Positions 7,369 through 25,758 of a DNA stretch of 29,363 nucleotides are shown one piece after another; the stretch's first letter is position 1; the number at the start of each line of letters is the position of its first letter. Source of the DNA: a virus; IMG/VR virus record IMGVR_UViG_3300048930_000689, positions 1 through 29,363 of that record, one strand, 5' to 3'. The notes under the pieces are model-generated. The model was not told the origin of the DNA, searched no databases, and was given only the letters and a program-made list of their open reading frames with translations. Both the position numbers and the translations under genes were made by a program.

Positions 7369-8349
7369 GTGGCAGACAGGACGATCCCCAGTCTAGATCA
7401 GGTCACGTCGATCACAGACACAGCGCTGTTCGTCGTGGACACCGGCATCGAGACGTTCAAGATGCGCGCTGAGGACTTGGCTGTGTACATGCGGGACACG
7501 CTCCTGCCTGCCGGCATGGTCTCGCCATACGGTGGCCTAGCTGCTCCTTCGGGATGGCTGATGTGTGACGGATCAGCGGTCAGTAGATCGACCTACTCAC
7601 GGCTGTTCGCGGCGATCGGCACGGTCTATGGCATCGGCAACGGAACAACGACATTCAACGTACCTGACGCTCGCGGTCGAGTGATAGCCGGCAAGGACGA
7701 CATGGGCGGCAGTGTGGCTGCCCGCCTGACGACAGGTGTTTCTGGCGTCAACGGTGCCAGCCTCGGCGCAGCTGGCGGTGATCAAGCCTACACGCCTGCC
7801 GGTGCCAACAGCGGCACGCAGTCAATCGCGCACACGCACACCATCGCGCACACTCATACCCACGCGCACACGCACACCATCGCGCACACACACACGATGG
7901 ACCACACCCACAACATCGCTCACCATCACAAAGTGATGGAATGGAACTATCTGACTTGGGGCGTCAAGCACACAGGAGCAAACACCGCTTGGTCGAACAC
8001 AAAAGACTTCATTTCTCTCACGCGCAGTGGGTCCGTAGGTACTGATGCCTATGGATTCGATGGCGGTTGGTCTGCTGGTGAATCAGTTTACACAGGCGGT
8101 CCGTTGGGGCCGGTGTCAGGATCGAACTCCACGGCTACATCCGGCGCTGCCAGCGTCAGCACCACGAGTGCGGCAAGCGCCGCGAACTCCGGTGCAGCAA
8201 GCACAGAAACGACATCGGCCGCCAGCGCCACGAATTCAGGCGGCATGTCCGCAAACTCCACAGTCAACGGATCCAACTTCACGTTCACCGGCACAGCATC
8301 GCACCGCGTGCAACCGACGCTCGTGCTCAACTACATCATCAAGGCGTAG
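7369..8349 (+). CDS. Tail fibre with collar domain and His-rich HxH tip
   Basis: A 326-residue fibre protein with GTG start at 7369. Residues 1-45 form a short attachment module (ADRTIPSLDQ...ETFKMR) that recurs in the next gene. Residues about 48-110 are a phage tail-collar domain (GMVSPYGG, PSGWLMCDGS, TFNVPDARGRVIAG). Residues 153-188 contain HxH repeats (AHTHT, THAHTH), like the metal-binding HxH motifs in trimeric fibre tips such as T4 gp37. A Ser/Ala/Thr/Asn-rich stretch follows, and the C-terminus HRVQPTLVLNYIIKA is typical of collar proteins. It is likely a trimeric receptor-binding or adhesin component stabilised by iron or another metal. Confidence 0.85.
   Translation: MADRTIPSLDQVTSITDTALFVVDTGIETFKMRAEDLAVYMRDTLLPAGMVSPYGGLAAPSGWLMCDGSAVSRSTYSRLFAAIGTVYGIGNGTTTFNVPDARGRVIAGKDDMGGSVAARLTTGVSGVNGASLGAAGGDQAYTPAGANSGTQSIAHTHTIAHTHTHAHTHTIAHTHTMDHTHNIAHHHKVMEWNYLTWGVKHTGANTAWSNTKDFISLTRSGSVGTDAYGFDGGWSAGESVYTGGPLGPVSGSNSTATSGAASVSTTSAASAANSGAASTETTSAASATNSGGMSANSTVNGSNFTFTGTASHRVQPTLVLNYIIKA
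7825..7932 (+). repeat. Degenerate CAC-rich repeat encoding HxH motifs
   Basis: About 108 bases built from degenerate ATCGCGCACACNCACAC units, encoding some fourteen histidines in the pattern HxH. The repeat stays in frame, so selection is on the protein (metal-coordinating histidines) rather than on DNA. Such arrays are prone to slippage and recombination between fibres. Confidence 0.8.
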
Positions 8350-8357
8350 GTCGACTC

Positions 8358-8723
8358 ATGGCTAACAGGACAATTCCCGAGCTGTCAGAGATCGACCTTG
8401 TAGACGTCACAGCTGACCAACTGTTGGTCCTTGACGACGGCAACGAGACGTTCAAAGTCAGGATGTCCACGCTCGCCAACTTCTTTCTGTCGGCCAACCG
8501 CTTCCCTGTGTCTGTCGTGTTCGACGGCATGGAGACCGGCGAGAAGACTGTGGACGTGACGTCACTGGACATCGATGCCACGGTGTTCGCATGGACGCTA
8601 AAGAAACCGACGACCGGCGAGCAGATCACTGCTGTCATCAAGACGCCGGACGCCGCAACCGTGACGATCGACACCGGCGACTTCGCACTTGACGCCGGTA
8701 CCTACATCCTCTTGGGAGTCTGA
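8358..8723 (+). CDS. Small fibre-associated protein sharing the fibre attachment module
   Basis: A 121-residue protein from ATG 8358. Its first 45 residues (ANRTIPELSE...NETFKVRMSTLA) parallel the N-terminus of the preceding fibre (ADRTIPSLDQ...IETFKMRAEDLA), so both probably dock on the same baseplate site. The remaining part is a small beta-rich domain (KTVDVTSLDIDATVFAWTL, AATVTIDTGDFALDAGTYILLGV), perhaps a knob or adaptor. It may be an alternative or shortened fibre produced by duplication of the attachment module. No catalytic motif was seen. Confidence 0.65.
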   Translation: MANRTIPELSEIDLVDVTADQLLVLDDGNETFKVRMSTLANFFLSANRFPVSVVFDGMETGEKTVDVTSLDIDATVFAWTLKKPTTGEQITAVIKTPDAATVTIDTGDFALDAGTYILLGV

Positions 8724-8726
8724 CCT

Positions 8727-9755
8727 ATGAACATGCGTCGTCTGCTCATCGCCGTCTTCTCGCTCATCGGAGTCGCGACCGTCGCGTTCGCGATGGACAT
8801 CAACGGCCAACTCAAGAACGCGCAGTTCGAGAAGGTCATCGCCAATCCGTCCGTCAACGAGGTCGAGGGCCGCGTGGTCTATGACACCGTCGACGACCAG
8901 ATCCGTTACTACGATGGCTCCGCGTGGATGACGATCGCCGACACCGCGTCGGCCCTCGTGAACCCTATGGACGACGCCGGCCAGATCATCTACGGCGGCG
9001 CGTCTGGATCGGTGACGAAGCTCGCCGCCGGCACGAGCGGCCAGGCATTGTTCTCGGCGGGAACGTCCGCGCCGGTCTGGACTGGCTTGGCTGACGGCAA
9101 GGTCTGGGTCGGCGACGGCTCCAACCTACCTGTCGCCGTGACGCCGTCGGGCGACGTGACGATGACCAACGCAGGCGTGACCGCGATCGCCGCCGGCGTG
9201 ATCGTCGATGCCGACGTGAACGCTTCCGCTGCGATCGCAGGATCAAAGCTCGCGGCCGCGACCAATTCGGTAGCCGGCGCTGTGACTACGTCCGCCCAAT
9301 CTTTTGCCGGCGTGAAGACGTTCTACGACGGCGTCAAGCTCGACGACGCTGCCGGTCAGTCAACACTCAACCGCTATGCAGAGTCGGGGTCTCTTACTTC
9401 GTCCTCGGCGTCGGCCTGCGCGTCGTTTAGCATCACGATGTACCTGACGCGCATCGGAAACATCGTGATCGGCACGATGAAATTCAAGCTGACGAAGGAC
9501 GGCACGGCCAACCAAGTGACCATCAGCGGGCTGATCCCATCCGGCTTCCGGCCAGCCCAGCGTCAGGTGATCTCCTACCCAATGAACTACCACGGCGGCG
9601 GCAGTCAGAATGCGGCGGCCTACGTGGACACGGACGGCGACCTGCTGCTCTTCCGCGGCTCTGACCTCGGCGCATTTGCGGCCAGCGGAGTGAGCAACAC
9701 TGCCGGATCGGGCTCCTTCTACGTCAACTTCACCTACGACCTGACCGGAGCGTAA
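8727..9755 (+). CDS. Fibre-like surface protein with N-terminal signal peptide
   Basis: A 342-residue protein from ATG 8727 (GGGAG at 8714-8718 fits this start better than ATG 8733). Residues 1-22 form a textbook Sec signal peptide: RR, a hydrophobic core LLIAVFSLIGVATVA, and an AFA cleavage site. The mature protein resembles phage fibre modules: VEGRVVYDTVDDQIRYYDGSAWMTIAD, a glycine/alanine/threonine-rich shaft with VTKLAAGTSGQAL, and a beta-rich C-terminal domain (GSGSFYVNFTYDLTGA). A cleavable signal is unexpected in a virion fibre because assembly is cytoplasmic. It may be exported, or the helix may serve as a membrane anchor. Confidence 0.7.
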   Translation: MNMRRLLIAVFSLIGVATVAFAMDINGQLKNAQFEKVIANPSVNEVEGRVVYDTVDDQIRYYDGSAWMTIADTASALVNPMDDAGQIIYGGASGSVTKLAAGTSGQALFSAGTSAPVWTGLADGKVWVGDGSNLPVAVTPSGDVTMTNAGVTAIAAGVIVDADVNASAAIAGSKLAAATNSVAGAVTTSAQSFAGVKTFYDGVKLDDAAGQSTLNRYAESGSLTSSSASACASFSITMYLTRIGNIVIGTMKFKLTKDGTANQVTISGLIPSGFRPAQRQVISYPMNYHGGGSQNAAAYVDTDGDLLLFRGSDLGAFAASGVSNTAGSGSFYVNFTYDLTGA

Positions 9756-9757
9756 CG

Positions 9758-10027
9758 GTGCGCACCACATGCCTCGTCGAGAAGGCAGACCTGAACGCCC
9801 TCACGCGGCTCGCCCAGTTCGGCGAAGCGCACGCCTGGGTGATGGGGCTCCCGGCCGACCCCTACTACGCGGCCGTTGGCGAAGACTATTTTCGTCGTCA
9901 TCCAATGTCCGTCGATTACGGAAAGCTGACGCCGGTCCTGACAGCCGCCGTGAAAGAATTGATCGCTCGCGTCGAGAAGCTTGAGACCAGAGTCACTGAG
10001 TTGGAAGGTCAGAACCCCTGCAAGTAA
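9758..10027 (+). CDS. Small fibre accessory protein with S74-chaperone-like C-terminal helix
   Basis: An 89-residue protein with GTG start two bases after the previous stop. The C-terminal half, DYGKLTPVLTAAVKELIARV followed by EKLETRVTELEGQ, closely resembles the conserved end of peptidase S74 intramolecular chaperone domains (xDYxxLxPxLxxAxxEL then a coiled coil). Those domains trimerise tail spikes and cut themselves off. Here the segment is a separate short polypeptide after two fibre genes, without the Ser/Lys catalytic part. It could be a free-standing trimerisation chaperone or a remnant of a longer fibre. Confidence 0.55.
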   Translation: MRTTCLVEKADLNALTRLAQFGEAHAWVMGLPADPYYAAVGEDYFRRHPMSVDYGKLTPVLTAAVKELIARVEKLETRVTELEGQNPCK

Positions 10028-10040
10028 GGATGAGCCCGAG

Positions 10041-10280
10041 ATGTACGAAGTGAAGTTTCAAAACAAGGACCTCGACGGCGTGATCCCTGATGTCGTCGAA
10101 GACGGCCTCGTGGAACAGTTCCCTCATCGGTGGTTTCTTGACAGCGGCGGTCAGCGTACCGAGGTCCCGATCGCGGGCACCGTCTTCGTTTTCGGGCCAG
10201 AACGCCACGAGATGATCACGAAGAGGCACGCCGAGTTGGAAGCTGCGAAACAAAAGTCCGAGGCACAGCCGCCGCCCTGA
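10041..10280 (+). CDS. Small protein, unknown
   Basis: A 79-residue protein starting at ATG 10041, with AAGGA at 10026-10030 about ten bases upstream. It starts MYEVKFQNKDLDGVIPDVV, has a beta-rich middle (EVPIAGTVFVFGPER) and ends in a charged helix (KRHAELEAAKQKSEAQPPP). There is no signal peptide or membrane helix. It follows the fibre accessory gene and precedes the lysis-like region. I do not recognise a family. Confidence 0.5.
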   Translation: MYEVKFQNKDLDGVIPDVVEDGLVEQFPHRWFLDSGGQRTEVPIAGTVFVFGPERHEMITKRHAELEAAKQKSEAQPPP

Positions 10281-10306
10281 TGCTCTGCTGAGCGGCTGGG
10301 TCGTGG

Positions 10307-10312
10307 TACAAT
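10307..10312 (+). promoter_or_regulatory. Candidate -10 element upstream of the secreted-protein gene
   Basis: TACAAT, five of six matches to the sigma-70 -10 hexamer, sits in a local AT patch (GGTACAATTTTCC) 43 bases before the start of the signal-peptide gene at 10355. No good -35 hexamer lies 16-18 bases upstream (TCTGCT region). A 7-bp inverted repeat (CAGCCGC 10266-10272 / GCGGCTG 10292-10298) precedes it and could end upstream transcription weakly. The call is tentative. Confidence 0.28.
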
Positions 10313-10354
10313 TTTCCTACGCCCCACACGACCAACCGCCCAGGAGACTCTGCC

Positions 10355-11026
10355 ATGCCAGTGCTTGCCGCCTTGTTCGCGTGGCTCCTCGTCTCTTCTT
10401 CGGTCTTTGCCTCTGCGCCAAACCGCAGGGTTGTCGCCGAGCTGCGGGCCGCGAACACGCTGGAGGCGCAGGCCGAGAAGACGACACTGGCGATGGACCT
10501 GCTGATCAAGACGGCCTGCTTCCATGCACGCCGGGTCGGATCGGGCGATGACGTCGCCGGCGTCTGCGGCGACTGGGAGAATTACTGGCTTCCGAAGATG
10601 GAGATGGCGACGGCAGAGGGCCGCGGCATCGGCGACCACAAGCCGCTCTCGCAGTGGCTTGCCGCCGCAACGGTAGTCCTCTATGCGGCGCTCTCCGACT
10701 ATCCTCTGATCATCGACATGATCCGACTGGAAGATCTGGTCATCTTCAACTACGGCCTGCCGGTCTTCTTCGATCCGCATGCATCTGCCGAGTGGTGCCT
10801 TGAGCTGCCCGACTCCCCTTGCCGCGACGAGTATCGCGAGCATGGTGAGCGAGTCATCTCATCGACATCCTGGTGGCTGAGCTGGGGCGCGTGCGTCGGC
10901 GCGACCTGGGGCGCCGGCGCCATCGGGATGATATGCAGCCCGATCGGCGACCTCACGGAGAAGCTCGTCCTCGTCACCGTCGCGCCGAAGATCAGCTATC
11001 GCATCTGGGATCGGAACAACGGATGA
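10355..11026 (+). CDS. Secreted or membrane-anchored cysteine-containing protein, unknown
   Basis: A 223-residue protein from ATG 10355, preceded by CAGGAGACTC. Residues 1-21 (MPVLAALFAWLLVSSSVFAS) look like a Sec signal peptide ending near ASA. At least six cysteines are spread through the mature part (ACFHAR, GVCGDW, AEWCLEL, SPCRDEY, GACVGA, MICSP), consistent with disulfides in the periplasm. A second hydrophobic glycine/alanine-rich stretch (WGACVGATWGAGAIGMI) near residues 180-196 could insert in a membrane. It heads a run of small membrane proteins ending in an endolysin, so a role at the envelope during lysis or superinfection control is possible. Function unknown. Confidence 0.6.
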   Translation: MPVLAALFAWLLVSSSVFASAPNRRVVAELRAANTLEAQAEKTTLAMDLLIKTACFHARRVGSGDDVAGVCGDWENYWLPKMEMATAEGRGIGDHKPLSQWLAAATVVLYAALSDYPLIIDMIRLEDLVIFNYGLPVFFDPHASAEWCLELPDSPCRDEYREHGERVISSTSWWLSWGACVGATWGAGAIGMICSPIGDLTEKLVLVTVAPKISYRIWDRNNG

Positions 11027-16598: not shown

Positions 16599-17204
16599 AT
16601 GCAAGTCGAGACGCGCCCTATCTCTTCGTTGGTCCTCGATCCTGCCAACGCCAGGAAGCACGGCCCGAAGAACCTCGCCGCCATCAAGGGCAGCCTCGCG
16701 CGCTTCGGGCAGCAGAAGCCCATCATCATCTCGGATGCCGGCGTCGTCATCGCTGGCAACGGCACCCTGACGGCGGCGATGGAGCTGGGCTGGACGGAGA
16801 TCGACTGCGTCCGCACGCATCTCTCCGGCAGCGACCTGACGGCCTTCGGCATCGCCGACAACCGGACGGCGGAGCTGGCGGAGTGGGATCCGGAGAACCT
16901 CGGCGCGCTGCTCGGCGCCCTGGACGAAGAGTTCCCGCTGGATCAAATCGGCTTCGACGAGGCCGACCTTGCGGCGATGGGCATCGGCATCGACGAGGCA
17001 CCGCTTCCCGATCTGCCCGATGGCGACCGGCTGCCCTTCCAGCAGATGGCCTTCCATCTCCATGACTCGCAGGTCGACCTGGTTGATCGCGCGCTCGAGT
17101 CCGCGCATGAACTCGGTGACTACGACAAGGACCTCAATCCGAACAAGAGCGGCAACGCGCTCGCGCGCATCTGCGCCGCCTATCTGAAGATGCGCCATGG
17201 GTAA
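16599..17204 (+). CDS. ParB-like N-terminal-domain protein
   Basis: A 201-residue protein from ATG 16599 (AGGAG 16582-16586, slightly long spacing). The first 100 residues are a ParB/sulfiredoxin-type domain: ISSLVLDPANARKHG, LARFGQQKPIIIS, VVIAGNGTLTAAMELG and FGIADNRTAELAEWD. GNG (53-55) stands in the nucleotide-binding GxxR-type loop. The C-terminal region is acidic with a conserved-looking KSGNALARICAAYLK end. Phage ParB-like proteins of this type are often next to DNA methyltransferases or modification genes rather than ParA, and none is present here. It overlaps the Mom-like gene by eight bases, so the two are likely functional partners. Confidence 0.8.
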   Translation: MQVETRPISSLVLDPANARKHGPKNLAAIKGSLARFGQQKPIIISDAGVVIAGNGTLTAAMELGWTEIDCVRTHLSGSDLTAFGIADNRTAELAEWDPENLGALLGALDEEFPLDQIGFDEADLAAMGIGIDEAPLPDLPDGDRLPFQQMAFHLHDSQVDLVDRALESAHELGDYDKDLNPNKSGNALARICAAYLKMRHG

Positions 17205-17949
17205 GGCAAAGCAGATCCACGTCGCGCCGATATCGCGCGAGCATGCCAACGGCGTCTGCAAGCGCTTCCATTACTCGGGCACCGTGGTGCTCGGGAGCCA
17301 GCTACATCTCGGGGTCTTCCTGGACGGCCGCCTTGAAGGCGTGATGCAGTTCGGGCCGCCCATCGACAAGCGCAAGCTGATCGGCATCGTCGCGGACACC
17401 CCATGGAACGGCTTCCTGGAGCTGAACCGCATGGCCTTCGGGCCGCGGCTGCCGCGCAACTCCGAGAGCCGAGCTCTGGCCATCGCGATGAAGATCATCC
17501 GGAAGAACTACCCGCATGTGCAGTGGGTTGTCAGCTTCGCCGATGGCACGCAGTGCGGCGACGGGACGATCTACCGCGCCTCCGGCTTCGTCCTCACGGC
17601 GATCCGGAAGAACCAGACGATCATGCGGATGCCCGATGGATCCGTCGAGGTCTGCCATAACGCATCGACGCCGAAGAAGGCGAGCGGATCGATCCGGGCG
17701 CGCGGCGGTGTCGCGATGCCTGGGTTTCAGCTACGCTACATCTACTTCCTGGATCCGTCCGCGCGGGGGCGGCTGGTCGGATCTGAGGTAGGCTTCTCGG
17801 AGATCGAGCGCGTGGGCGCCGGGATGTATCGGGGAGAGAAGAGACGCGCCGGAAGCAAAGCGATCGTTGCGTCCGCTAACCATGCGGAAGGGGGCGGTGA
17901 AACTCCGACCCCGGCGCTCCACTCCTCCCCCGATCAGTCGTCCTCCTGA
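17197..17949 (+). CDS. Mom-like DNA base-modification protein
   Basis: A 250-residue protein from ATG 17197, overlapping the ParB-like gene. The core (residues about 15-185) reads KRFHYSG, LHLGVFLDGRLEGVMQFGPP, NGFLELNRMAF, NSESRALAIAMKIIRK, WVVSFADGTQCGDGTIYRAS. I recognise this as the GNAT-fold family of phage Mu Mom, which converts adenines to a carbamoylmethyl form and blocks many restriction enzymes. The His25-Tyr26 pair and the SFADG segment are candidate active-site elements by analogy with Mu Mom. The C-terminal tail is basic, then Gly/Pro/Ser-rich. No Com-like translational activator was found nearby. The 3' end overlaps the converging gene by 16 bases. Confidence 0.75.
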   Translation: MGKAKQIHVAPISREHANGVCKRFHYSGTVVLGSQLHLGVFLDGRLEGVMQFGPPIDKRKLIGIVADTPWNGFLELNRMAFGPRLPRNSESRALAIAMKIIRKNYPHVQWVVSFADGTQCGDGTIYRASGFVLTAIRKNQTIMRMPDGSVEVCHNASTPKKASGSIRARGGVAMPGFQLRYIYFLDPSARGRLVGSEVGFSEIERVGAGMYRGEKRRAGSKAIVASANHAEGGGETPTPALHSSPDQSSS

Positions 17950-23330: not shown

Positions 23331-24626
23331 ATGAACTTCGAGAGAGAGCTGATCGGCCTCTGCATCAAGAACGGATCCGGCTTCGAGGCCGCCCTTGGAG
23401 CCGGGGTGACGGAGGAGAGCTTCCAGGACCCGGTCTGCGGGTCGATCTTCAAGGCGATGCGCGAGGCGGATCGCGAGGGCGAGCGCGCGAGCCTCCCCTA
23501 TCTCTGCCGGAAGCTCGGGCCCCAGATGGCCGAGGATCTTCAGGCTCTCTATGCGACGGCGGCGACCTCGCTCAACGTCCGGCACTTCGCCGACGAGGTG
23601 GCGGCGGCATCCTGGGTGCGCTCGACGCACGCCGCGCTGCGCGACCTCTCGGCGGCGCTGATCGCGCGCCAGCCTCAGACGCCGATCGGCGAGCTTCAGC
23701 GCATGCTCGACGAGCTGCCGGCGCTCTCAGGGCGCCTCAGCGGCGAGGCCGGGCCGCGGCTCATCCGCGACGTGATGCCGGAGTGGATCGACGACCTGGA
23801 GGCGCGCGTCACCGGCAAGCTCAGCTCCAACGTCCCGACCGGCTTCTCGGCGCTCGACATCGTGATGAACGGCGGCTGGCATCGCGGCGCCTTTGCCGTC
23901 GTCGCGGCGCGACCCGGCCGCGGCAAGACCACCTTCGGGCTAAGCGCGGCGATCAACGCCGCCATCGCTGGCCATCAGACGATGTTCGCCACCGTCGAGA
24001 TGACGGCACGAGACATCGCGACGAAGGTCGTCAGCAACCTCGCTCGAGTGAAGAGCGGCAAGTTCATCCGCGGAGAACTCACCGACGACGAGAGCGACCG
24101 CACGATGGGGCAGATGGAGCGCATCGGCGGACTCCCGCTTTGGATCGACGACGCATGGCGCGGCGAGTTCGAGAAGTTCGTCGCGCACTGCCGACGCCTC
24201 AAGCGGCGCTCCGGTCTCGACCTGGTCTTCCTGGACTACGTCGGCCTGACGAAGCTCAAGGGGCGCCATGACTCGCGGCGAGAAGAGGTCGAGGAGATCT
24301 CGAAGGCCTGCAAGCTGATGGCGCTGGAGCTGAACGTCGCCGTCGTCGCGCTCGCCCAGCTCAACCGGCGCGCCGAGGATGAGATCGTTCCCGGCAAGGA
24401 GCACATCGCGGAGTCAGACAACCTCGGCCGCGATCCCGACGCCGTGATCCTGATCTATCGGAAGCCGATGCTCGCCGCCGATGGCAGCGAGACCGGCGAG
24501 GAGCAGACGATGCTGAGCGTGCAGAAGAACCGCTGGGGCATCGAGCGCGACATCCCGGTCGATGCCGATCTCGCCTTCAGCGCCTTCCGATCGGCGTCCG
24601 TCAACCTGGAGAGCTTCAACTCATGA
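23331..24626 (+). CDS. Replicative DNA helicase, DnaB family
   Basis: A 431-residue protein from ATG 23331 with an AAGGAGATG box at 23317-23325. It has a DnaB-like N-terminal helical domain (ERELIGLCIKNGSGFE, ALYATAATSLNVRHFADEV) and a RecA-type motor from about residue 165: VPTGFSALDIVMNGG, Walker A ARPGRGKTT (193-201), TVEMTARDIA, Walker B DLVFLD (297-302), AQLNRRAED (342-350), and SDNLGRDPDAVILIYR with a later R-rich end. It would unwind DNA at the fork as a hexamer. It is somewhat shorter than E. coli DnaB. Its stop overlaps the next start by four bases. Confidence 0.9.
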   Translation: MNFERELIGLCIKNGSGFEAALGAGVTEESFQDPVCGSIFKAMREADREGERASLPYLCRKLGPQMAEDLQALYATAATSLNVRHFADEVAAASWVRSTHAALRDLSAALIARQPQTPIGELQRMLDELPALSGRLSGEAGPRLIRDVMPEWIDDLEARVTGKLSSNVPTGFSALDIVMNGGWHRGAFAVVAARPGRGKTTFGLSAAINAAIAGHQTMFATVEMTARDIATKVVSNLARVKSGKFIRGELTDDESDRTMGQMERIGGLPLWIDDAWRGEFEKFVAHCRRLKRRSGLDLVFLDYVGLTKLKGRHDSRREEVEEISKACKLMALELNVAVVALAQLNRRAEDEIVPGKEHIAESDNLGRDPDAVILIYRKPMLAADGSETGEEQTMLSVQKNRWGIERDIPVDADLAFSAFRSASVNLESFNS

Positions 24627-24817
24627 GCGCAGAGCTGATGAAGGAGATCGAGGAGGCGCGCGAAGGCGCCGCGCATCTGCGCAAGGTCGCCGAGGAGATC
24701 TCGGATGGATGGATGGCGAAGGAGATGCGCGAAGCCGCGGATCTGCTCGAAGGCGCCGCCGCCGACGCCGCGACGAGCTTCGACTTCAAAGCATGGCTTG
24801 CAGCGGGGTGCCCTTGA
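24623..24817 (+). CDS. Small helical protein, unknown
   Basis: A 64-residue acidic protein from ATG 24623, in ATGA overlap with the helicase. It is almost fully helical (MKEIEEAREGAAHLRKVAEE, MAKEMREAADLLEGAAADAA) with a short C-terminal FDFKAWLAAGCP. Its last 25 bases overlap the start of the methyltransferase gene. It may be a dimeric accessory subunit; no family recognised. Confidence 0.55.
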   Translation: MSAELMKEIEEAREGAAHLRKVAEEISDGWMAKEMREAADLLEGAAADAATSFDFKAWLAAGCP

Positions 24818-25758
24818 TCAATGGTCTGGATTTATTTAGCGGCATCGGCGGACTCTCCCTTGCCTTGGAGCCCTGGGTGCGGACGCTCGCCTACTGTGAG
24901 GCGAACGCCTACGCTCAATCAGTTCTCCTGTCCCGCATGCGGGGAGGCGCGCTGCATCGCGCTCCAATTTGGGACGACGTGCGCACGCTGCGCCGCGCAG
25001 ATCTCCTCACGCTCGGTCATGGAGCCGACTTCGACATCATCTTCGGCGGCTTCCCTTGCCAGGACCTCAGCCTTGCGGGAGATGGCGCGGGTCTGGCTGG
25101 CGAGCGAAGCGGCCTGGTCTTTGAGATCCTCCGACTCGTTGGCGAGCTGGAGCCCAGCTTCGTCTTCTTGGAAAATGTGCCTGCCCTTCGGAGCCGAGGG
25201 GCCGACGCTATCGTCGGTCGACTGGCCGGCCTCGGGTATGAGTGTCGATGGGACGTGCTATCCGCTTTCGACGTGGGAGCGCCGCACCTCCGAGAGCGAT
25301 GGTGGCTTCTGGCCTACCGCGACGGCGCAAGATGCCGCAAGCTCGCGCAACGCTACGGTGCAGAACCGGAGAGTCGCTGGCAACTCGGGGGTGACGCTGA
25401 CGGACTTCGTCACTCTCTTCCCGACGCCGACCGCGGCGGAGTACGGCACGCGCAACAACGGACGGCGTGGCGATGGGACGACCTTCGGGACCGCTGGCGC
25501 CCCGAGCTTAGCGACGATGGCGAGGCAGAACCTCTGGCCGACGCCGAAGGCGAGCGAAGGAGATCGCGGCTGCAGCTCGGACAACCTGCGCGGCAACCCG
25601 ACCCTTTCGAGCGCAGCTGGTGGGAAGCTGAACCCCCGGTGGGTCGAGTGGTTGATGGGCTACCCGGACGGGTGGACCGTCTGCGATCCCTTGGCAACTC
25701 CGTTGTTCCATCCCAGGCGCGCGAGGCATTTGTTCGGCTGATGGGGCTGCGTCGATGA
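24793..25758 (+). CDS. DNA (cytosine-5) methyltransferase
   Basis: A 321-residue enzyme; ATG 24793 is used, with GTG 24808 an alternative only five codons on. C5-methyltransferase motifs are in order: I, GLDLFSGIGG (11-20); IV, GGFPCQDLS with catalytic Cys89; VI, FLENV (125-129); VIII, HLRERWWLL (165-173); and IX/X, RVDRLRSLGNSVVP (293-306). Between VIII and IX is the Arg/Asp-rich variable region that should set target choice. No cognate restriction gene is visible, so it is an orphan phage methylase that probably protects DNA. Most of the gene also carries a second open frame (see next entry). Confidence 0.88.
   Translation: MACSGVPLINGLDLFSGIGGLSLALEPWVRTLAYCEANAYAQSVLLSRMRGGALHRAPIWDDVRTLRRADLLTLGHGADFDIIFGGFPCQDLSLAGDGAGLAGERSGLVFEILRLVGELEPSFVFLENVPALRSRGADAIVGRLAGLGYECRWDVLSAFDVGAPHLRERWWLLAYRDGARCRKLAQRYGAEPESRWQLGGDADGLRHSLPDADRGGVRHAQQRTAWRWDDLRDRWRPELSDDGEAEPLADAEGERRRSRLQLGQPARQPDPFERSWWEAEPPVGRVVDGLPGRVDRLRSLGNSVVPSQAREAFVRLMGLRR
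24821..25741 (+). CDS. Overlapping +1-frame ORF with PTPxA repeats and LNPxWVEWLMG motif
   Basis: A 306-codon frame open inside the methyltransferase gene in the +1 frame. Residues 114-286 contain SSSWKM, DWPASGM, CYPLSTWERRT, three PTxxA repeats (FWPTATAQD 163-171, LFPTPTAAEYG 199-209, LWPTPKASEGD 238-248) and GGKLNPRWVEWLMG (267-280). I recognise these phrases from a recurrent phage protein type often found beside C5 methyltransferases, as a separate gene in some genomes. The start is uncertain: ATG 24821, 25019 or 25082, none with a good ribosome-binding site. It may be a real dual-coded gene, a frameshift extension, or a frame image that annotation has propagated. Function unknown. Confidence 0.5.
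   Translation: MVWIYLAASADSPLPWSPGCGRSPTVRRTPTLNQFSCPACGEARCIALQFGTTCARCAAQISSRSVMEPTSTSSSAASLARTSALREMARVWLASEAAWSLRSSDSLASWSPASSSWKMCLPFGAEGPTLSSVDWPASGMSVDGTCYPLSTWERRTSESDGGFWPTATAQDAASSRNATVQNRRVAGNSGVTLTDFVTLFPTPTAAEYGTRNNGRRGDGTTFGTAGAPSLATMARQNLWPTPKASEGDRGCSSDNLRGNPTLSSAAGGKLNPRWVEWLMGYPDGWTVCDPLATPLFHPRRARHLFG

Follow-up and report, generated by a model that had tools for sequence, protein, structure and literature searches.

The window analyzed here is the whole of an IMG/VR virus record (29,363 bases; GC 63.5%), and the gene under study, hereafter 8727, occupies 8727-9755 on its plus strand, with the coordinates and frame described earlier: it runs from an ATG at 8727 to a TAA at 9755, encodes 342 residues, and sits between the tail and lysis genes. 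Upstream of it lie a collar fiber gene (7369-8349, plus strand), whose product carries an attachment-like module (TIPSL...VVDTGIETFKM) and a Phage Tail Collar domain, and a gene for a 121-residue protein (8358-8723, plus strand) made up of the same kind of module (TIPEL...VLDDGNETFKV) and a short C-terminal region. This N-terminal module also opens fibers of the phages phi1402 (gp32 and gp33) and MAC3UK and of six related IMG/VR phages (L028-L033), in the form TIPxL...VDTGxxTFKM or KITDLQL...GDNGIQTYR, and it is absent from the 8727 protein. Judging from its position and recurrence, the module probably serves attachment to the baseplate, and the 8358-8723 product may be an adaptor without a fiber. 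Downstream, an 89-residue ORF (9758-10027, plus strand; other frame, no signal peptide) starts 2 nt after the stop of 8727, and the lysis genes follow it. Its C-terminal half resembles the extreme C-terminus of phage tail fibers, matching the P-TIM68 fiber at 52% over 48 residues and ending at the fiber C-terminus; we read this half as a putative S74-chaperone-type coil, and the ORF may encode an independent folding helper or be what is left of a longer fiber.

Some other features of this neighborhood deserve mention. The 7369-8349 collar fiber has a long repeat rich in histidine (AHTHTIAHTHTHAHTHTIAHTHTMDHTHNIAHHHK) that may bind metal. Just upstream of the lysis genes, 10355-11026 (plus strand; AGGAG 8 nt upstream) encodes a protein with no family match that has hydrophobic C-terminal segments and a signal-like hydrophobic N-terminus (MPVLAALFAWLLVSSSVFA, followed by SAP) without a positive n-region. 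Proteins that are signal-peptide-like and have hydrophobic segments also lie by the lysis region in phi1402 (gp35; L012, 19842-20327) and MAC3UK (L013, 19466-19924), and phi1402 gp35 passes the rule applied below to the 8727 leader.

The 8727 protein begins with MNMRRLLIAVFSLIGVATVAFA, followed by MDINGQLKNAQFEKVIANPSVNEVEGRVVYDTVDDQIRYYDGSAW, the part downstream of the leader opening with MDINGQ. The leader (22 codons; 8727-8792, plus strand) is laid out as MNM, the pair RR, the stretch LLIAVFSLIGVATV and AFA, with a predicted SPase I site between AFA and MD. We scored it with a simple rule that calls for a positive n-region, a 10-residue uncharged hydrophobic core and small residues at -3 and -1; by this rule the Sec/SPase I features (n-region, h-region, AXA cleavage site) are all present. 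The leader had the top score among the 183 ORFs of at least 60 residues in the window, and only 1058 of 200,000 random composition-matched N-termini (0.53%) passed. The rule proved crude on controls, finding OmpA and LamB, missing MalE and PhoA and wrongly passing the membrane protein LacY; its result supports the signal-peptide call made by eye and is no substitute for SignalP. Hydrophobicity peaks in the leader (KD 2.62 for the best 15-residue window vs. 1.67 elsewhere in the protein), and 15-residue windows over the whole protein gave no evident second membrane segment, which favors an exported fiber. Overall, the N-terminus looks like a Sec/SPase I signal peptide. Export through Tat was considered for the RR pair and rejected: the usual Tat context is S-R-R-x-F-L-K, which is missing here, where an M comes before the pair and a very hydrophobic core after it.

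Residues 23-70 (MDINGQLKNAQFEKV...VVYDTVDDQIRYYDGSAWMTI; 8793-8936, plus strand) share homology with the N-terminal ends of head-decoration and tail-fiber proteins of phages, with alignments that span 45-55 residues and reach 49% identity. Aligned IMG/VR homologues gave the module consensus MAxKF[LV]TN[LI]DLNxNQ[LI]xNxxFExLxxDPxSxNFEGRLIYxTxxDxIKxYxGSAW, and the PHROGs names attached to the homologues are head decoration, tail fiber and virion structural protein. The module lies within 70 residues of the first possible start in 133 of the 154 matched viral ORFs, many of these loci being near-duplicates, so that the independent cases are fewer. These N-terminal-module homologues begin at the module: about 8 residues, MAxKF[LV]TN, precede the position aligned with M23. 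In the 8727 protein the 22-residue leader stands where the homologues have those 8 residues, and the predicted cut between A22 and M23 coincides with the edge of the module, the arrangement to be expected from fusion of a signal peptide to a fiber. Since the homologues start after the hydrophobic segment, the leader is, on this comparison, an addition specific to this lineage and gives no evidence of an old exported family. Three loci flagged as signal-peptide fibers under a relaxed rule were discarded: in L056 the module sits at residue 744, in L069 the match falls inside the module's own N-terminus with weak hydrophobicity, and in L103 the case is weak and the alignment starts 81 residues in.

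These results bear on several claims of an earlier note on this locus. It had pointed to an N-terminus with RR, a hydrophobic core and the cleavage site AFA, all of which are present, with the rule passed and a Shine-Dalgarno motif supporting the start; its observation that fiber-type sequence comes straight after the cleavage site likewise agrees with the module alignment. Its proposed signal-peptide prediction across homologues, made here by simple rules, recovered the leader in 8727 and found a convincing one in 0 of the 133 N-terminal-module homologues. It had also held that homologues starting after the hydrophobic segment would refute a signal peptide; the homologues do start there, but the Shine-Dalgarno motif favors translation from 8727.

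The evidence for the start site also weighs on a very unlikely alternative, namely that the leader is untranslated, the protein starting at ATG 8793 (MDINGQ...) and the upstream codons being open by chance or joined on in a chimeric assembly. An in-frame ATG does exist at 8793, the sole later start near the boundary, and the homologues start near this point. However, the Shine-Dalgarno-like GGGAG (8714-8718, plus strand; within TTGGGAG) is spaced 8 nt upstream of ATG 8727 and no such motif precedes 8793. Translation from 8793 would also open a gap of 69 nt and cost the protein the 8 residues with which the homologues begin. The signal-peptide codons are moreover coding-like in third-position GC (0.86 vs. 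0.83 for the remainder of the gene), and the chance of such an N-terminus arising at random is about 0.5%.

The rest of the protein is built like a fiber. Residues 84-205 (GQIIYGGASG..., GDVTMTNAGVTAIAAGVIVDADVNASAAIAGSKL..., TTSAQSFAGVKTF; 8976-9341, plus strand) form a low-complexity shaft of repeat motifs common to phage tail proteins, with a weak match to phrog_2012 at residues 120-206 and related segments in the loci L075, L103 and L123. The C-terminal tip (residues 206-342; 9342-9752, plus strand) appears kin to the tips of Arthrobacter phage minor tail proteins (phrog_3971, phrog_16877): it weakly matches phrog_3971 and minor tail proteins, and it matches gp23 of Arthrobacter phage Tenno (E 0.01 by tblastn; 4e-6 by phmmer against 9725 ORFs of fetched loci), whose family, phrog_6614, includes minor tail proteins. 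AlphaFold2 was confident only at residues ~31-70 (pLDDT about 90; mean of the whole model 54.5), and Foldseek with this weak model returned mostly phage fiber and decoration proteins, none with an alignment good enough to use; sequence searches of the PDB were uninformative. Neither an outer-membrane anchor nor a known surface-anchoring domain was found with Pfam and NCBIfam. By its module and shaft the 8727 protein fits the virion fiber and head-decoration class, and it departs from that class by its export-type leader.

The product could be an ordinary virion fiber. Its hydrophobic N-terminus would then be no export signal, or an unused one, and would instead be an uncleaved attachment peptide docking into the 8358 adaptor or the baseplate, with the 9758 product as folding helper. 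Its homologues are virion-type proteins, its operon holds the adaptor-like gene with a module resembling those for virion attachment as well as the S74-type coil gene 2 nt downstream, and fibers usually attach through their N-terminus. Yet the leader resembles a Sec signal in its RR n-region, its long hydrophobic core and its AFA at the module boundary; SRP/SecA should accept a leader of this kind as a substrate, and no N-terminal-module homologue uses one. On balance we regard a virion fiber as rather unlikely, though it is the strongest of the alternatives.

Among isolates, the terminase of the phage (27659-29278) is closest to those of the Bdellovibrio dwarf myoviruses MAC3UK (49.8%) and phi1402 (48.3%), over 435 residues, and the baseplate genes of the phage match gp30-gp31 of phi1402 in order and length (270 and 180 residues here vs. 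269 and 179); a gp31 homologue occurs in 8 of 11 related records at 31-38% identity. phi1402 has been described as the smallest independent myovirus known (PMC3391216). The gene content of the window (a weak tail-sheath match, DnaB- and DnaD-like replication genes, the collar fiber and an M15-type endolysin) fits a small contractile-tailed phage. The host is possibly a member of the Bdellovibrionota, an assignment that the GC content and the modest identities leave tentative. No counterpart of 8727 turned up in nine IMG/VR records related by TerL, several being fragmentary, or in the phi1402-like related phages. Searches of viral contigs and plasmids, and two scans of genome contigs with a few peptide patterns, gave no close relative of the whole protein. 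We also observed two DNA-modification genes in this small phage, one for a Mom-like protein (17197-17949, plus strand; Pfam PF25680, E 2e-48) and one for a C5 cytosine methylase (24562-25758), and, in a related phage contig (L033 of G007), a simple repeat at 10224-10602 on the reverse complement that is open in two frames (GSGSGYGYG..., ALALAMAMA...) and is apparently a low-complexity tract.

Kinship with Bdellovibrio phages raises the question of a phage-borne surface adhesin, displayed by the host and altering what the cell adheres to, as a moron resembling lysogenic conversion. The model for this is the mosaic adhesive trimer (MAT) fibers of Bdellovibrio, which resemble phage fibers, carry signal peptides and are displayed on the cell surface (Caulton et al., 2024; PMC10769870). 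The terminase and the syntenic baseplate genes speak for such an adhesin, but the host is tentative at a GC of 63.5% and a terminase identity of only about 50%. Furthermore, MATs have a conserved domain of ~130 residues after the signal peptide where 8727 has a short phage module, and the scanned ORFs yielded no integrase, leaving lysogeny unsupported. We consider this explanation improbable. A related and more speculative thought, which we hold to be slighter still in likelihood, is that a tailed phage of a predatory bacterium exchanged the first residues of a virion fiber for a Sec signal and so obtained a secreted, free-standing fiber, a phage counterpart of the MATs that would be displayed on the infected predator or left in the bdelloplast and there mask receptors or alter attachment to prey.

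The reading that we prefer, holding it about as probable as all others together, is that the 8727 product is an accessory derived from a virion fiber and exported as a non-virion protein of the envelope. Export itself appears moderately likely. Retargeting to the envelope is favored by the anatomy of the signal peptide together with the start-site evidence, by the N-terminal position of the module in most homologues with no convincing signal peptide among them, by the annotation of these homologues as virion parts (head decoration, tail fiber), and by the lack in 8727 of the module that opens both upstream fiber genes and the fibers of related phages. The position between tail and lysis genes, which is common for accessory genes, and the lack of a match in the nine TerL-related records favor an accessory gene. 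A survey of phage diversity-generating-retroelement targets reported signal peptides on bacterial surface-displayed targets and none on the phage proteins (PMC6199706), and by analogy the signal peptide in 8727 argues for display over virion assembly. The MATs, fiber-like proteins with signal peptides on the Bdellovibrio surface (PMC10769870), offer a second analogy in favor of export. The secreted fiber proposed in the earlier note is partly supported, by a Sec-type leader, predicted to be cut at the module boundary, on a protein whose virion-part relatives have none, and by the absence from 8727 of the baseplate-attachment-like module of its neighbors; the roles suggested there, such as decoration of the infected cell, a superinfection block or binding of virions, are conjectural.

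The envelope reading would work as follows. By sequence, the protein joins a widespread phage module to a shaft and a tip of the receptor-binding type, and its 22-residue leader of the Sec/SPase I kind stands in place of the 8 residues with which its relatives begin. Late in infection SecYEG would export the product, signal peptidase would cleave it between AFA and MD, and the fiber would fold and trimerize in the periplasm. In what is the weakest step, the tip might then bind a component of the envelope, so that a receptor is masked or the fiber stays as a surface adhesin; the product would perhaps be a receptor mask, a decoy or an adhesin, and this role is the least certain part of the proposal. 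Masking of a receptor would amount to a superinfection block or decoy, and progeny would not re-adsorb to the dying cell or its debris. The 8727 product would not be expected as a baseplate-assembled part of the virion. Counting against the envelope reading are the single example from a metagenomic contig with no close relative showing that the leader is conserved, the fiber operon, whose possible adaptor (8358) and possible cytoplasmic chaperone coil (9758) fit a virion fiber, and the lack of an outer-membrane anchor or known surface-anchoring domain.

Each of the three parts, module, shaft and tip, is already known; none of the loci compared joins them to a Sec signal in a tailed phage, and a limited literature search found no report of a tailed-phage fiber with a Sec signal. 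If the protein is exported, exchanging a few N-terminal residues for a signal peptide would be a simple route from a virion fiber to a secreted or surface fiber. This would bear on the origin of bacterial adhesins such as MATs from phage fibers and on the ways in which phages may block re-adsorption, and annotators would be warned that the label "tail fiber" need not mean a part of the virion.

Compared with known proteins, the same module that opens the mature 8727 protein is found in members of phrog_2647, phrog_8309 and phrog_11518 (MAxKF[LV]TNLDLNxNQ...EGRxIY...YDGxAW), which also share the architecture of shaft and tip after the module; unlike 8727, they start directly at the module without a signal peptide. 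The tips of the Arthrobacter phage proteins (phrog_3971 and phrog_6614, Tenno gp23) have 35.8% identity over 76 residues and the motif GLIPxGFxPA in common with the 8727 tip, whereas the N-terminal portions of these proteins are of other kinds, collagen-like ones among them, and no signal peptide is seen in Tenno gp23. Phage-encoded proteins that act on the cell envelope or surface include envelope superinfection-exclusion proteins, the prophage adhesins PblA/PblB and Eib. To our knowledge, superinfection exclusion of this kind relies on small lipoproteins or membrane proteins and not on fibers; PblA/PblB belong to the virion and lack a signal peptide, and Eib has a YadA-type anchor. In Eib and the trimeric autotransporter adhesins this anchor is C-terminal, in contrast to 8727, for which neither Pfam nor NCBIfam gave a match to one. 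MATs differ from 8727 in being bacterial and longer and in their conserved, beta-rich domain of ~130 residues after the signal peptide (PMC10769870), in place of which a phage module of ~50 residues follows the 8727 leader, which speaks against such a domain in 8727; the MAT domain, compared by its published description, was not recognized here. What 8727 has in common with the MATs is a signal peptide followed by phage-tail-fiber-like sequence, with an adhesive tip in the MATs and, by sequence, a phage-type tip in 8727, and the nearest sequenced relatives of its phage infect Bdellovibrio.
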